Shown here: positions 3,260-7,880 of the stretch, in pieces
How the letters are laid out: each line of letters opens with the position of its first letter
How positions within the stretch are numbered: position 1 is the stretch's first letter
Source: a virus
Strand: one strand, 5' to 3'
Length of the DNA stretch: 21,050 bases
IMG/VR virus record: IMGVR_UViG_3300032288_003545
Coordinates: 1-21,050 of that record
The notes under the pieces: model-generated
The model's input: only the letters and a program-made list of their open reading frames with translations
Told to the model about the DNA's origin: nothing
Database searches by the model: none
Translations under genes and position numbers: made by a program

Positions 3260-4054
3260 ATGATTGAGTACCAAAAGTTAATGAGGCATGTATTGGAGAA
3301 TGGTGTGTACAAGATGGATAGGACGGGCACAGGTGCCATTTCCGTATTCGGTACACAGAGTCGTTATAATCTGACCGAAGGCTTTCCTTTGGTGACGACA
3401 AAGAAGATGCATTTGAAATCTATTATCCATGAACTGCTCTGGTTCATTAGGGGAGATACAAATGTTAAATATCTTCAAGATAACGGTGTGACCATCTGGG
3501 ATGAATGGGCTGGACCAGATGGCGAGCTAGGACCTATCTACGGAAAACAATGGCGTAGCTGGGAAACTCGAGATGGAACTATTGATCAGTTATTCAATGT
3601 TATCGAAGGACTGAAAAACAATCCACATAGTCGTAGGCATATTGTTACCGCCTGGAATCCTGCAGATGTAGAAACAATGGCGCTACCTCCTTGCCATGCT
3701 TTCTTCCAATTCTTTGTGGATGATGAGGATCGCCTTAGCCTGCAGCTATATCAGCGTAGCGCCGATGTATTCCTCGGTGTACCATTTAACATTGCCAGCT
3801 ACTCATTGCTGTTAATGATGGTTGCTCAGGTTACTGGTTATACACCGCATGAATTTATTCATACTATCGGTGACGCTCATTTATATTCCAATCATATTGA
3901 GCAAGCCAAACTCCAGCTTTCCCGAGAACCTCTGGAAAGTCCTATTATGAAGATCAATCCCAATATTAAAAATATTGATGGCTTCAAATATACGGATTTT
4001 GAATTGGTGAATTACGAATGTTATCCTGCTATCAAAGCAGAGATTGCCGTTTAA
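3260..4054 (+). CDS. thyA: Thymidylate synthase (folate-dependent ThyA type)
   Basis: The 264-aa product converts dUMP to dTMP using methylene-tetrahydrofolate, which boosts the thymidine pool for phage DNA synthesis. The length equals that of bacterial ThyA. The dUMP/folate loop DRTGTG is at residues 20-25 (R21), the catalytic cysteine lies in [10 protein letters not shown] (C145), and [12 protein letters not shown] (162-173) and PFNIASY (N177) are intact. The C-terminus ends in IKAEIAV, close to the usual closing tail. All active-site residues I can see are present, so the enzyme should be active. There is no Shine-Dalgarno sequence before the ATG. A hairpin terminator follows 20 nt after the stop codon. 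Confidence 0.97.
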
Positions 4055-4074: not shown

Positions 4075-4103
4075 AAGGGGTGCTCGTAACTGGGCACCCT
4101 TTT
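4075..4103 (+). terminator. Intrinsic terminator after thymidylate synthase
   Basis: AAGGGGTGC (4075-4083) pairs with GCACCCTTT (4094-4102) to form a 9-bp stem with one G-U pair and a 10-nt loop, running into T4100-4103. It sits just after the thyA stop. Its T-run is directly continuous with the first copy of the 20-bp promoter-like element, so the terminator and the next promoter form one compact boundary. Confidence 0.75.
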
Positions 4104-4121
4104 GTGTTATATAAATTTGTA
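4102..4121 (+). promoter_or_regulatory. 20-bp promoter-like element, copy 1
   Basis: The sequence TTGTGTTATATAAATTTGTA occurs here and identically at 4499 and 7416. Each copy is intergenic, points rightward, lies downstream of a gene end and precedes a unit that ends in a terminator. The core TATAAATT resembles the T4 late promoter -10 (TATAAATA), and TAAATTTG also fits the TAnnTTTG box of Bacteroidota promoters. No conventional -35 or -33 element is evident. This copy precedes the 92-aa gene at 4167. Confidence 0.75.
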
Positions 4122-4166
4122 ACCCCAGAAATGGGTGTTACAAAACATCAACACACACATAAAAGT

Positions 4167-4445
4167 ATGTATACAAATAATCAAAAACTTAAAGTTTTGG
4201 TTGATTACGCAATCAAAACTTTCCCCGAAAGGGTCGAGCAGGAATTCTTGAATCATTTCAAGGAATTCTGCGAGGAGCCATCCACCAAGAATGCCGCTGA
4301 CGTTATATGGCTGCTTCTTGCTGTGTTCGAAAAATACGGAATGTCGAAGGAAGGCGGCAAAAGCATCGCAGATTTGGAGGTAAGGCTTTCTCAGCTGGTT
4401 GACCGGCTGGAAAAAACTGGCGGGTTGATTAACCCTGAAAAATAA
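4167..4445 (+). CDS. Unknown phage protein, 92 aa, in its own transcription unit
   Basis: I chose ATG 4167 because an in-frame ATG at 4080 would place translation across the terminator loop and the promoter-like element at 4102-4121. The product is a compact, probably all-helical protein with many acidic and basic residues. It includes FLNHFKEFCEEPSTK in its first half and a Leu/Val-rich amphipathic helix near the C-terminus (about residues 72-85). There is no signal peptide or metal motif. The leader is CA-rich with no Shine-Dalgarno sequence. The gene lies alone between promoter-like copy 1 and a UUCG-loop terminator, so it is probably expressed strongly and independently. The function is unknown. 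Confidence 0.75.
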   Translation: MYTNNQKLKVLVDYAIKTFPERVEQEFLNHFKEFCEEPSTKNAADVIWLLLAVFEKYGMSKEGGKSIADLEVRLSQLVDRLEKTGGLINPEK

Positions 4446-4450
4446 TCACT

Positions 4451-4474
4451 GGGGATCTTCGGATCCCTTTTTTT
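4451..4474 (+). terminator. Intrinsic terminator with TTCG tetraloop
   Basis: GGGATC (4452-4457), TTCG loop, GATCCC (4462-4467), then seven T residues (4468-4474). This is a compact textbook intrinsic terminator. It closes the 92-aa gene unit about 24 nt before the next promoter-like element. Confidence 0.88.
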
Positions 4475-4498
4475 ATTTATCTGCTATAACTATACTTA

Positions 4499-4518
4499 TT
4501 GTGTTATATAAATTTGTA
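4499..4518 (+). promoter_or_regulatory. 20-bp promoter-like element, copy 2
   Basis: This is an identical copy of TTGTGTTATATAAATTTGTA. The preceding bases (TTA) and following CG are also shared with copy 3. It lies 25 nt after a terminator and 33 nt before the ATG of the 665-aa gene. The predicted transcription start is near 4523. Confidence 0.75.
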
Positions 4519-4551
4519 CGCACCGGAATTATCTAGGACGTACTTCACGTT

Positions 4552-6549
4552 ATGTTCTTACACATCAAACAACAAGTACAGAAGCGCTTTAATGAGCTTC
4601 TGCAAAATGGTCCCGTATTTTGCGTGGACATCGACAAAGAAAAGATCTGGGAAATGTACCTCGCTGCATTCCCGGAACAATACAAACAGGAGAATACCTG
4701 TAACTGCTGTAAATCTTTTATCCGTCAGTTCTCAGGACTGGTTGGTATTAAAGATAACAAGGTCCTTACTCTGTGGGACTTTGAATGTACTGATCCAGAG
4801 TACGCTAATTCGGTTAAGGCAATGAGGGATTATATTCTCTCCTGCAAGATCGATTCAGTTTATGTTAATTCGTTCGCCAAGCTGGGAACGGATAAGACAC
4901 CGGACGCAAAACGTAATCTGGTTTGGGAGCATTATTTCATTGAGCTGCCGCGAAACATGCTGGTACGGGAAGATAAAATCGGACCAACTCAAGGTACAGC
5001 TAGGGACAATAAAAATGTCCTTAAGCGCTCGCTTGATGAAATCACGGATGATGCCGTGAATACTGTTCTTGAACTGATTGGTCAGAATTCCCTGTACCGG
5101 GGCAATGAGCATAAAGCTACACTGACCGAGTTTATTAAAATTAAGGAGCGGTATAAGAAGGTACCTAACGCCCTGCGCGATAACTTCTGCTGGGCTGAAG
5201 CGCCAAAGACTCATGCTGCCGTCTGCCGTATTCGTAATACGTCTATCGGTACGCTGCTGGTAGATTTGTCTGAAGGTCGTGACCTGGATAGTGCGGTCTC
5301 CGCATTTGAACGTGTAGTGGCTCCTGCTAACTACAAGCGCCCTACCGCGCTGGTTACACCCAGGATGATTGAACAGGCGCAGGAACGTCTGACTGAGCTG
5401 GGTATGCTCGGTTCACTTGAACGTCGTATCCTGGACAGTCGTGATCTCAATGTTAATAATACATTGTTCGTGCATCGTCCGTCTGGTGGTGGTGTTTCCG
5501 ATATCTTCGCAGACCTGAAGAAAGACACTATTGTCAATCCTAAGAGTCTGAATAAAGTTGAGGAAATCAGCATTCAGGACTTTGTGGATAAAGTTCTACC
5601 TACTTCCAAATCTATTAAAGTTCTTGTGGAGAATATTCACATGCCGAACTTTGTTACTTTGGTCGGCGCTAAGAACCCGGATGATCCTACCATGTTCAAG
5701 TGGGGAAATAACTACTCCTGGGCATACACCGGGGATGTGGCTGACTCGATCAAAGAACGTGTCAAAGCTGCCGGTGGTAATGTCACTGGCGTTCTGCGTA
5801 TCAGCTTGTCATGGCATAACCACGATGACCTGGATCTGCATGTTCATGAGCCTCAAGGTTATCATATTTATTTTGCTAACAAGAGGGCGTTGTCTCCATC
5901 AGGCGGTATGCTGGATGTAGACATGAATGCAGGTGGTGGTAGTAGCCGTGAACCTGTGGAAAATATTTTCTGGGCTAAAGAACCCAGAATGGAAGGCACG
6001 TATTCTGTCGTTGTGAATAATTACTGCCGCCGCGATAATAAAGATGGTGGCTTTGAGGTTGAGATTGAGTACAATGGTGAAATTGAAACTTTCACTTCTA
6101 ATACCAATGCAGCCACAGGTAAAAATTTCAACATCGTTGAATTTAATTACACCAAGAAAAATGGTATTCAGTTTATTAATTCTAGCGGTAAATCTAATAT
6201 CGCTAAATATAATTCCAGAGAGAAGTGGGGTGTAAAGACCGGGCAGTTTGTTCCTGTTCGTGCTATTACGCTGTCTCCTAATTTCTGGAATGATACATCA
6301 GGTAACAAACATTATTTGTTCCTGCTGGAAGGTTGTAAATCGGATGAGAAGACTCGTCCGTTTTTCAATGAGTTCCTTAAGCCTGAGCTTAGCGCAGATC
6401 GCAAGGTCTTCGAGATCCTGGGTAGTAAGGTAAATGTAGACAAAGCGGAAGATGAGCTGTCTGGTATCGGTTTCTCCGACACCGTACGGAATCATGTTTT
6501 CGTTGAAGTCGAAGGCACGTTCAAGCGTGTCGTCAAAGTTAAATTTTAA
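4552..6549 (+). CDS. Large conserved phage protein with YfaP/DUF2135-like domain, 665 aa
   Basis: The function is unknown. An N-terminal region carries a TCNCCKSFIRQF cysteine cluster at residues 49-60. A long middle part is mostly alpha/beta. A beta-rich domain at about 412-535 has the hallmarks I associate with YfaP/DUF2135-type domains: LSWHNHDDLDLHVHEP (419-434), a GGMLDVDMNAGGG turn (451-463), EPVENIFW (467-474) and a GxYxVxVNxY strand (482-491). Asp/His clusters suggest metal binding. The final 125 residues include LSPNFWNDTSGNKHYLFLLEG. From memory, similar proteins occur in several tailed phages, but I cannot verify this here. It is the first gene after promoter-like copy 2. There is only a weak AGGA about 17 nt upstream. 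I see no signal peptide or membrane segment. Confidence 0.85.
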   Translation: MFLHIKQQVQKRFNELLQNGPVFCVDIDKEKIWEMYLAAFPEQYKQENTCNCCKSFIRQFSGLVGIKDNKVLTLWDFECTDPEYANSVKAMRDYILSCKIDSVYVNSFAKLGTDKTPDAKRNLVWEHYFIELPRNMLVREDKIGPTQGTARDNKNVLKRSLDEITDDAVNTVLELIGQNSLYRGNEHKATLTEFIKIKERYKKVPNALRDNFCWAEAPKTHAAVCRIRNTSIGTLLVDLSEGRDLDSAVSAFERVVAPANYKRPTALVTPRMIEQAQERLTELGMLGSLERRILDSRDLNVNNTLFVHRPSGGGVSDIFADLKKDTIVNPKSLNKVEEISIQDFVDKVLPTSKSIKVLVENIHMPNFVTLVGAKNPDDPTMFKWGNNYSWAYTGDVADSIKERVKAAGGNVTGVLRISLSWHNHDDLDLHVHEPQGYHIYFANKRALSPSGGMLDVDMNAGGGSSREPVENIFWAKEPRMEGTYSVVVNNYCRRDNKDGGFEVEIEYNGEIETFTSNTNAATGKNFNIVEFNYTKKNGIQFINSSGKSNIAKYNSREKWGVKTGQFVPVRAITLSPNFWNDTSGNKHYLFLLEGCKSDEKTRPFFNEFLKPELSADRKVFEILGSKVNVDKAEDELSGIGFSDTVRNHVFVEVEGTFKRVVKVKF

Positions 6550-6561
6550 TTAAAAATTCAA

Positions 6562-6756
6562 ATGACTCCTAAAACATACACTCTGGGACAGGATGAAGAA
6601 TGTAATGCGCTTTATGATGAAAATGGAAATTTAATTTATGGTTGGCAAGAAGGCGATGACATTTCTCGCGTTCTTAGCAAAATACTTTCTAACTTTAATA
6701 TAACGTTAGATCGTAAATCTATTAGTGTTGATGGATCCTATCCTTCAAAAATTTAA
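6562..6756 (+). CDS. Small acidic unknown protein, 64 aa
   Basis: I do not recognise this protein. It contains a short motif LYDENGNLIYGW that could be a beta hairpin, followed by a polar C-terminal half. It lies 12 nt after the 665-aa gene, with an AT-rich leader and no Shine-Dalgarno sequence. It should be on the same transcript as its neighbours, between promoter-like copy 2 and the terminator at 7202. Confidence 0.65.
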   Translation: MTPKTYTLGQDEECNALYDENGNLIYGWQEGDDISRVLSKILSNFNITLDRKSISVDGSYPSKI

Positions 6757-6790
6757 ATTCTAATCCCAAACAACCCACACAAATAAAACA

Positions 6791-7186
6791 ATGTCACTCG
6801 AAACACTCGTAGTCAAAGCCGCTCGTAAGAAGTGGCGCTTCGCAACCACCAAAGGTCACCTCAGCTTTGAGGATCTTTGGGATCTGAAGCTCGAAGATCT
6901 GGATAAGATCGCCGTTGCTCTGGATGAGAAAATCCAGAAGGGAGGACGTAAGTCCTTCATCACAAAAAGGACTGAAAGCATGACTGAAGAACAGGGCATG
7001 TTTGACCTTGTCAGCTATGTCATCGAAACCAAGATGGCAGAGGCTGATGCCGCTAAGGATCGCGCTGCTAAGCGTGGTCAGCGTGAGTTCCTTGAGGATC
7101 TCAAGAAGAAGAAGCTAATCGCTACGCTCGAGGGTCTGTCTCTCGATGAGATCGATAAGCAGATTGCTGCTCTTGGAGAAGAGTAA
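6791..7186 (+). CDS. Conserved phage hypothetical protein, 131 aa, helical
   Basis: The N-terminus KKWRFATTKGHLSFEDLWDL (residues 13-32), a Lys/Ala-rich charged helix around 75-105 and a C-terminal LDEIDKQIAAL resemble a family of small phage proteins I remember but that has no assigned role. The C-terminal half is probably a coiled coil or long helix and lacks Cys and Trp. The leader is CACACAAATAAAACA with no Shine-Dalgarno sequence. The codon choice looks more biased toward C-ending codons than that of adjacent small genes, which fits strong expression. It is followed directly by a 10-bp-stem terminator. Scaffolding or DNA-associated roles are possible but unsupported. Confidence 0.85.
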   Translation: MSLETLVVKAARKKWRFATTKGHLSFEDLWDLKLEDLDKIAVALDEKIQKGGRKSFITKRTESMTEEQGMFDLVSYVIETKMAEADAAKDRAAKRGQREFLEDLKKKKLIATLEGLSLDEIDKQIAALGEE

Positions 7187-7201
7187 CCAAACCTAAACCT
7201 C

Positions 7202-7238
7202 GCCGCCAGGAGTTAATTCTCCTGGCGGCTTTCTTTTT
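7202..7238 (+). terminator. Strong intrinsic terminator ending unit 2
   Basis: GCCGCCAGGA (7202-7211) pairs perfectly with TCCTGGCGGC (7220-7229) across an 8-nt loop, followed by TTTCTTTTT. This is a 10-bp GC-rich stem, among the strongest hairpins in the window. It lies 15 nt after the stop of the 131-aa gene. Confidence 0.93.
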
Positions 7239-7242
7239 ATCT

Positions 7243-7410
7243 ATGGATAAAATTTTAAAATATATCAAAGAGCAACTGGAGCTTATCAAAAATCAGAAAA
7301 CATATACTGATTGGGAAGAAGCCAGAAGAGAAGGGGCCGAGGGTGCTCTAGAAGATTTGCTGGAACAATTTTCAAATCCATGTTTATCTAAAAACAGTTG
7401 CAATACTTAA
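7243..7410 (+). CDS. Small unknown protein, 55 aa
   Basis: The ATG at 7243 lies 5 nt after the terminator T-run, and the stop TAA is at 7408-7410. The product has a Lys/Glu-rich helical N-terminal two thirds containing YTDWEEARREGAEGALEDLL (residues 21-40), and a C-terminal tail with two cysteines. There is no Shine-Dalgarno sequence and no obvious promoter, so expression would depend on terminator readthrough. The charged, helix-like composition supports a real gene, but confidence is moderate. Confidence 0.5.
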   Translation: MDKILKYIKEQLELIKNQKTYTDWEEARREGAEGALEDLLEQFSNPCLSKNSCNT

Positions 7411-7415
7411 CATTA

Positions 7416-7435
7416 TTGTGTTATATAAATTTGTA
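7416..7435 (+). promoter_or_regulatory. 20-bp promoter-like element, copy 3 (drives the structured RNA)
   Basis: This is the third identical copy of TTGTGTTATATAAATTTGTA, sharing TTA upstream and CG downstream with copy 2. It lies 5 nt after the stop of the 55-aa gene. No credible gene follows for about 440 nt; a GC-rich structured stretch and a strong terminator follow instead. Confidence 0.75.
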
Positions 7436-7436
7436 C

Positions 7437-7853
7437 GGATAGTAATATCTATACACTCTTAACAGGGCAGTGTAATTGCTGTTAAGTTTCTTTAGGCGCT
7501 GCCTCCTCTACCAGTGGGAAGACACTCTGGAGTGACGTGGAAATCGTCACTCTCTTAAAGCGCCCACGGCGTACCGAATGGTATTCTGTGACGGTTACAA
7601 GGCCGAATGCCCCGACTGGGTACATTAGTCGGTGCTGCTCTGCGCCTTTGCAGAGAACGTTGAGTAAGAGCAATCTGGATATGATATTGGCGACTAGTTA
7701 GTCGAGCGATTACATGGTTGCTGCAATAACCATGGTGTTCGCCTTATCCAGGAAACAACGTCCCATCGACAAGACTCCAGCGGGCACGCAGAGTATTAGC
7801 GACCAAGTTGTAGGAGAGCGTCCAGGTAGAAATACCTGGGCGCTTTTCTTTTA
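7437..7853 (+). ncRNA. Large structured non-coding RNA, about 415 nt, class not recognised
   Basis: The span from promoter-like copy 3 to a strong terminator has no convincing reading frame and is richer in GC than its flanks. Helices seen by eye: 7458-7465/7479-7486 (8 bp); 7495-7500/7559-7564 (6 bp) enclosing 7530-7537/7545-7552 (8 bp); 7567-7570/7602-7605 enclosing hairpins 7572-7583 and 7587-7599; 7612-7617/7627-7632 (6 bp); 7638-7643/7650-7655 (6 bp); 7657-7662/7756-7761 (6 bp) enclosing 7675-7681/7745-7751 (7 bp). The last helix holds hairpin 7691-7704, stem 7706-7709/7739-7742 and hairpin 7713-7719/7728-7734 (7 bp). A GGTAC in the loop at 7619-7623 could pair with GTACC at 7571-7575. 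I see no tmRNA, RNase P, tRNA or clear group I intron signature. GOLLD- and ROOL-type phage RNAs are comparable in concept, but from memory are longer. Confidence 0.8.
7817..7853 (+). terminator. Intrinsic terminator with GAAA tetraloop, end of the structured RNA
   Basis: AGCGTCCAGGTA (7817-7828), loop GAAA (7829-7832) and TACCTGGGCGCT (7833-7844) form a 12-bp stem with one G-U pair, followed by TTTCTTTTAT. The stability of the stem and its position mark the 3' end of the unit 3 transcript. Confidence 0.93.
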
Positions 7854-7880
7854 TATATTGATAATAAAAAATAACATGCA

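Follow-up and report, generated by a model that had tools for sequence, protein, structure and literature searches.

In the phage collection searched, Salmonella phage Arash (OQ632216) is the nearest cultured relative of the phages considered here, and the accessible portion of its description (PMC10585845) reports among its virion proteins the RNA polymerase subunits beta (the most detected) and beta' together with a sigma factor homologous to the one described below; that portion never uses the word 'promoter'. According to the accessible portions of the respective sources, the sigma factor SaPh711_gp47 of phage 7-11 reads GTAAtg-(16)-aCTA with the host core enzyme (PMC8948821), the non-virion RNA polymerase of AR9 uses gp226, a protein without sequence similarity to sigma (PMC7598289), and recognizable sigma homologs usually occur in jumbo phages lacking a polymerase of their own (review PMC7598289). 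In the available main text on the mReC phages neither 'sigma' nor 'promoter' occurs, hence no promoter is described there (PMC7481178). Here we analyze a 20-base element, TTGTGTTATATAAATTTGTA, from a viral DNA stretch of 21,050 bases (positions 1 to 21,050 of IMG/VR record IMGVR_UViG_3300032288_003545, hereafter the window), and present evidence that it is very probably a promoter that a group of uncultured tailed phages has in common. A search of the openly accessible literature returned no description of this promoter.

The element occurs in three exact copies at positions 4102, 4499 and 7416, all on the plus strand and all intergenic, just as a sequence-only reading of the window had proposed. 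No further copy was found in the window with up to 3 mismatches allowed, and 100 shuffles of the window yielded a mean of 0.02 matches to the 20-mer, with three matches in 0/100. None of the three copies lies inside a same-strand, ATG-initiated open reading frame (ORF) of at least 60 amino acids (aa). Copy 1 starts 47 nucleotides (nt) past the thyA stop codon and 2 nt past a terminator-like hairpin, copy 2 starts 30 nt past a terminator-like hairpin, and copy 3 starts 5 nt past the stop codon of a doubtful 55-aa ORF. The claim of the same reading that there is no conserved -35 block does not hold, as an upstream box is present at an identical distance from all three copies and is conserved in relatives.

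An exact scan of IMG/VR with the 20-mer retrieved 14 stretches on 9 contigs, which were analyzed in full; the family set comprises ten contigs (cited by G numbers), window included, amounting to 576 kilobases (kb). The sites conform to the consensus G[C/T/A][A/T]A[T/C]A - N10 - KYGTG(T/C)TATATA(A/T)A(T/A)TTGTA. Across 35 deduplicated copies GTG at positions 3-5, TATA at 7-10, A at 12 and TTG at 16-18 are invariant, and variation at positions 13 and 15 yields two main classes, AAATTTG and ATAATTG. The upstream box, at -16 to -11, shows G (32/35), C/A/T, A/T, A (34/35), T/C and mostly A. Its spacing is strict: a gap of 10 was recovered in 40 family cases and 4 in relatives, with none at gaps 6-9 or 11-14, and the reversed-sequence control for the box at gap 10 gave 0 matches. 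In sigma70 terms this corresponds to a predicted -35-like GCAATA, a 16-nt spacer and an extended -10 element TGt-TATATA. The corresponding features of the window are:

4077..4104, plus strand: terminator-like hairpin after thyA, overlapping the upstream box of copy 1
4086..4091, plus strand: upstream (-35-like) box of copy 1, GTAACT, a fixed 10 nt before the 20-mer
4102..4121, plus strand: promoter copy 1 (20-mer), with the extended -10 TGT-TATATA at 4105-4113
4120..4140, plus strand: 5' hairpin of transcript 1, TAACCCC/GGG.GTTA, with a GAAA loop
4483..4488, plus strand: upstream box of copy 2, GCTATA
4499..4518, plus strand: promoter copy 2 (20-mer)
4516..4543, plus strand: 5' inverted repeat of transcript 2, GTACG ... 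CGTAC, a leader kept in relatives
7400..7405, plus strand: upstream box of copy 3, GCAATA
7416..7435, plus strand: promoter copy 3 (20-mer)
7433..7454, plus strand: 5' hairpin of transcript 3, GTA.GGATA GTAA TATCT.TAC

A weight matrix recovered 44 sites of at least 26.6 bits in the ten family contigs, the next match scoring 19.9 and controls at most 14.5; since the matrix was trained on these same sites, it is the gap to the controls, and not the score itself, that counts as evidence. The sequence-only reading had named copies lying mostly inside genes or on random strands as the outcome that would speak against it, and the sites behave otherwise: the majority gene strand carries 44/44 of them, and 42/44 fall outside same-strand ORFs of at least 60 aa, the two exceptions (G009 43022 and G009 61353) being within hypothetical ORFs. 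Many sites lie close behind a stop codon, and by a loose test 25/44 have a terminator-like hairpin within 130 nt upstream. Furthermore, TGTGTTATA is the dominant strand-specific intergenic word of the family, occurring in 36 of 239 intergenic stretches in the forward and 1 in the reverse direction. Near-copies retrieved with a degenerate pattern from six further contigs (G010-G015) score poorly at the upstream box, hence are most likely due to chance or other contexts, and were excluded from the family counts; three of them, from G010/G011/G012, are included in the 35-copy architecture set and in the 26-copy hairpin set used below, and not in the 32-copy pairing set.

What lies behind the sites is varied: the phrog_1735 gene and a small ORF, a gene for an RNA, regions bearing tRNAs, and the RNA polymerase genes. 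The structural block yielded no promoter site, and 0 sites were seen in the initial 46 kb of G004, a span that takes in structural genes, suggesting that the sites mainly serve non-structural, RNA and polymerase genes. The earlier observation that the replication genes have no copy holds for the window, and the relative G005 likewise has no site between 6629 and 33135. Cultured phages showed weak matches to the element at best (E-value 4), and the two-box pattern had no match in the genome collection. After masking of the sites no second promoter class was seen in the family intergenic stretches; sigma70-like pairs numbered 16 forward and 5 reverse against 10.4 in shuffles (largest 19), which is not convincing. 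As a separate observation, TTGACC-N16/17-GATAAT is conserved directly before the start codon of a 350-aa gene in G001, G002, G003, G004 and G009 and is possibly a host sigma70-type promoter.

Directly downstream of the element the sequence varies from site to site, yet folds into a short hairpin, for example ACGGATA-GTAA-TATCTGT, TAGCGC-AGC-GCGCTA, GCCA-GCAA-TGGC or ACCC(CAGAAAT)GGGT, with loops that are often GNRA-capped. For 26 distinct copies the mean fold energy is -4.77 kcal/mol, compared with -1.80 for shuffled sequences (sd 0.31; 500 shuffles). The edge of pairing was examined in 17 distinct family copies with a stem anchored at positions 22/23: pairing at position 19 is at chance (8/17, expected 8.4), and it exceeds expectation at position 20 (12/17, expected 4.9) and at position 21 (10/17, expected 5.1). 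As the excess begins at A20, we suggest this base, 7 nt past TATATA, as the first to be transcribed; the copies are partly non-independent by descent, and hence the A20 start is treated as a prediction. Position-dependent pairing can thus yield a start-site prediction from sequence alone, and the variable hairpin directly downstream of a promoter is new here.

A search for the factor that might recognize these sites pointed to G004, the sole family contig that extends across the structural block, which encodes a 238-aa sigma70-family protein. A single sub-threshold Sigma70_r2 match (0.025) led to this gene; its product matches Sigma70_r3 with 26.7 bits (curated cut-off 25.3) and the sigma family phrog_351 (6.4e-10), and shows sequence matches to RpoS/RpoD, and a Sigma70_r4 Pfam search gave 0/10 contigs. 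In the PDB, the folds closest to its predicted model (predicted local distance difference test, pLDDT, 73.9; predicted template modelling score, pTM, 0.38) belong to sigma chains in transcription initiation complexes, at low TM because the domains are flexibly placed. Relatives with 62% and 52% identity occur on G016 and G017, and the two-box promoter is present on all three sigma contigs, G016 and G017 together carrying 4 two-box sites with the same spacing and a hairpin behind each. The sequence-only reading had envisaged a T4 gp55-like sigma; phrog_234 and phrog_12791 each matched 0/10 contigs (fragments), while the T4 positive control matched at 2.5e-70 and 7.3e-8. The T4 late promoter has a single -10 element, TATAAATA, without a -35 box. 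A T4-late-type promoter is not supported, given that no gp55 homolog was detected in these contigs and that the upstream box stands at a fixed gap. What survives of the proposed phage-specific sigma or RNA polymerase is the promoter itself and a group of phages that encode a multisubunit RNA polymerase as well as a factor of the sigma70 family.

The polymerase is split. PHROG scans of 40 proteins, mostly from G005, detected a polymerase, helicases and a resolvase, but neither sigma nor RNA polymerase; the pieces of the latter that these scans missed were recovered only by comparison with Arash, whose gp206 and gp216 are confirmed as RNA polymerase by Pfam. Residues 27-263 of gp206 have homologs on G001, G002, G005, G006, G007, G009 and G017, and residues 268-469 on those seven contigs and G008; RNA_pol_Rpb2_3 was above cut-off in both of the two contigs tested. 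Catalytic beta/beta' regions were found in none of the first 12 contigs. They are present on G018, which shares its sample number with G005 and encodes the C-terminal part of beta, a beta' with NADFDGD and a beta'C (E-values 9e-59 to 1e-90). Between its beta and beta' genes G018 has a promoter copy, GCAATA-N10-TTGTGCTATATAATTACGAT, followed by an inverted repeat; the 20-mer as found in the window has no copy on this contig with up to 3 mismatches. Other promoter copies lie within about 3 kb before beta genes. The single-subunit RNA polymerase family PF00940 matched 0/10 contigs, in a search whose control matched in 0/14 genomes.

The computations establish the two-box motif, the strand on which its sites lie and where they stand, an excess of hairpins, and that the group encodes sigma as well as RNA polymerase; recognition by the phage's own holoenzyme, the start site, the role of the hairpin and the timing of the units are inferred. 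On balance we consider it more likely than not that a phage holoenzyme reads the element as a two-box promoter, with a 5' hairpin at the transcript start: the split multisubunit RNA polymerase and the sigma70-family factor of the phage would join to read the two boxes, perhaps after travelling in the virion as those of Arash do, transcription would probably start at A20, and the RNA would fold at once into the short variable hairpin, which would most likely shield the 5' end from decay or help promoter escape. With a polymerase, a sigma factor and a candidate promoter all nameable in one phage group, promoter recognition by such an enzyme becomes directly testable. More tentatively, and as an extension that we would not ourselves expect to hold in full, this all-phage holoenzyme might be injected with the DNA, and the hairpin at +1, conserved in structure, might act as a cap-like mark, one product being the structured RNA of ~300 nt discussed below.

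Several observations weigh against this proposal. The sigma and RNA polymerase genes sit on related contigs and neither is in the window; no single contig holds all of these genes, sigma, polymerase and window promoters lying on different contigs of the group, and the sigma gene was found in 1/10 family contigs, the one spanning that locus. As for the hairpin, 12/32 family copies show no stem with its anchor at position 22/23 (some form a different stem, such as the GTACG...CGTAC leader of the phrog_1735 gene) and a few copies fold weakly. In Arash the corresponding 5' hairpin signal is slight (-3.5 vs -2.4, sd 0.45), and its dominant intergenic motif, GGTATAAG, differs from the element of this group. 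Finally, binding of the sigma to the core enzyme of the host is equally possible, and the fit of the 20-mer to the Bacteroidota -7 box leaves room for a host sigma.

The last two points define the rivals that deserve most attention. We regard it as rather unlikely, though a serious contender, that the phage sigma redirects the host RNA polymerase to the element, as in phiEco32 and 7-11, and that the phage polymerase serves another promoter class: the sequence read in 7-11 with the host core comes near GCAATA-(16)-TATATA in box and spacing (PMC8948821, accessible portion), and the sigma factor of this group resembles RpoS/RpoD, but sigma, beta and beta' occur together in the Arash virion (PMC10585845, accessible portion), and promoter copies stand before the beta' gene and near the beta genes, a placement that fits self-controlled synthesis of the phage enzyme without proving it. 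An unlikely explanation, in our estimate, is that the sigma of a Bacteroidota-like host reads the copies as strong vegetative promoters, with TAHHTTTG at -12 to -5 and either flanks favoured by the phage or an activator of phage origin acting at the upstream box. T4 MotA/AsiA is an example of such an activator. The sequence-only reading was right that the letters match, in that TAAATTTG fits TAHHTTTG (PMC6847099; PMC9723704, accessible portions), with class-2 sites carrying ATTG, and a Shine-Dalgarno-like 4-mer precedes just 64/539 gene starts in the ten contigs, as in Bacteroidota, the leaders being A-rich with T at -1 in about half. Yet the other intergenic stretches show no enrichment of TAHHTTTG (10 matches forward and 13 in reverse, against 10.6 in shuffles), the box found at the place of the Bacteroidota -33 TTTG is G[CTA][AT]A[TC]A (the -33 box of F. 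johnsoniae is itself weak according to the accessible portion of PMC6847099), and the near-invariant TGTGTTATA and the TA at 19-20 lie outside the host consensus. Moreover, a start at position 20 would leave 1 nt after TAHHTTTG where the rule is 4-5 nt, so that the hairpin edge places the start about 3 nt before the expected +1. The host itself may be a member of the Bacteroidota or of another group without Shine-Dalgarno sequences, and the relatives of thyA come from several groups, Bacteroidota and Proteobacteria among them.

That the repeats serve recombination, packaging or replication, or bind a dimeric regulator as operators with the hairpin arms as half-sites, seems very improbable to us. 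Inverted repeats do stand behind the element, and its copies flank an exchangeable cassette: around the single copy in G004, the left side matches the left flank of copy 1 over 320 nt and the right side the right flank of copy 2 over 124 nt, with 3 mismatches each, so that the unit between the two is a cassette gained or lost between identical promoters. Any shared repeat, however, would explain such an exchange, a two-box motif with sigma70-like spacing would not be expected of recombination sites, the arms differ by site and contain G-U pairs, unlike half-sites, and all sites face genes, nearly all of them from intergenic positions.

Beyond the phage-holoenzyme proposal, the units themselves merit description. 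Among the genes of the window are those for a terminase large subunit, thymidylate synthase, the phrog_1735 protein, helicases, proteins like SbcD/SbcC and one resembling a Toprim primase. Behind the three copies lie:

4167..4445, plus strand: 92-aa small ORF of the cassette between copies 1 and 2, with no Pfam or PHROG match
4450..4476, plus strand: terminator-like hairpin and T run closing unit 1
4552..6549, plus strand: 665-aa protein, phrog_1735 (unknown function), behind copy 2, at the start of unit 2
6791..7186, plus strand: 131-aa protein, phrog_2018, in unit 2
7545..7855, plus strand: core of the structured non-coding RNA behind copy 3, with its closing helix and terminator
7813..7853, plus strand: hairpin and T run that terminate the RNA gene

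Unit 1 thus runs from promoter through hairpin and 92-aa ORF to terminator. No counterpart of this ORF was found at the same place in G001, G003 and G004; other ORFs occupy the place between thyA and the phrog_1735 gene in G005 and G009, and two cassettes do so in G002, such that none, one or two cassettes occur by contig (G001-G005, G009). The thyA ORF also varies in length, with 264 aa in the window (3260-4054) and 532 aa in G005 (1383-2981) and G004 (45336-46934), as if by an intein or other insert, and in some contigs the genes for portal, DNA polymerase and beta seem interrupted as well. Unit 3 has no convincing ORF. The region 7433-7860 folds with a z of -5.18, its core aligns with G001, G004, G005 and G009, and 22/78 predicted pairs are changed on both sides in the 5 sequences; Rfam gave no match at the gathering threshold, with sub-threshold matches alone at E-values up to 5. 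Copy 3 is thus predicted to drive an undescribed structured RNA of about 300-420 nt, and this RNA and the exchangeable promoter-ORF-terminator cassette are concrete targets for further work. In some orthologs of the RNA, stretches resembling a tRNA T arm stand between the hairpin and the core. Elsewhere, G005 71305-73293 (L051) encodes tandem short proteins, MKQSLNNSVSxSVWDSV..., of a 28-member family on 4 contigs.

Set against known systems, this group shares with Arash and the Vibrio phages D69, D148 and D181 homologous TerL (25%), sigma (24%), portal, capsid, beta and beta', but the beta-beta'N portion, one 1525-aa chain in Arash, is here distributed over at least 4 genes. In 180,000 bases of Arash searched, 26/27 matches to GGTATAAG(T/A) are on the minus strand, and its structural genes are mostly on the plus strand in the parts examined; this motif is a candidate promoter of the Arash virion polymerase. 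The virion and non-virion RNA polymerase promoters of the jumbo phages phiKZ and AR9 resemble ours in an AT-rich conserved motif around -10 before gene blocks, in phages encoding a multisubunit RNA polymerase, but no -35-like box is described in the accessible portions of the sources on them. The mReC phages (multisubunit-RNAP-encoding Caudovirales) are likewise metagenomic tailed phages with beta and beta' carrying NADFDG. T4 middle promoters also combine a phage box in place of the -35 element with TGn and a -10 element (PMC2988021, accessible portion), though their MotA box is a different one. The nearest functional parallel is phage 7-11, whose phiEco32-like late promoters have a phage sigma70-like factor, a GTAA(tg) box, 16-nt spacing and several copies before gene blocks in common with the element, and differ from it in the -10 part, aCTA, in the use of the host core RNA polymerase and, as far as the accessible portion of the source goes, in having no 5' hairpin reported.

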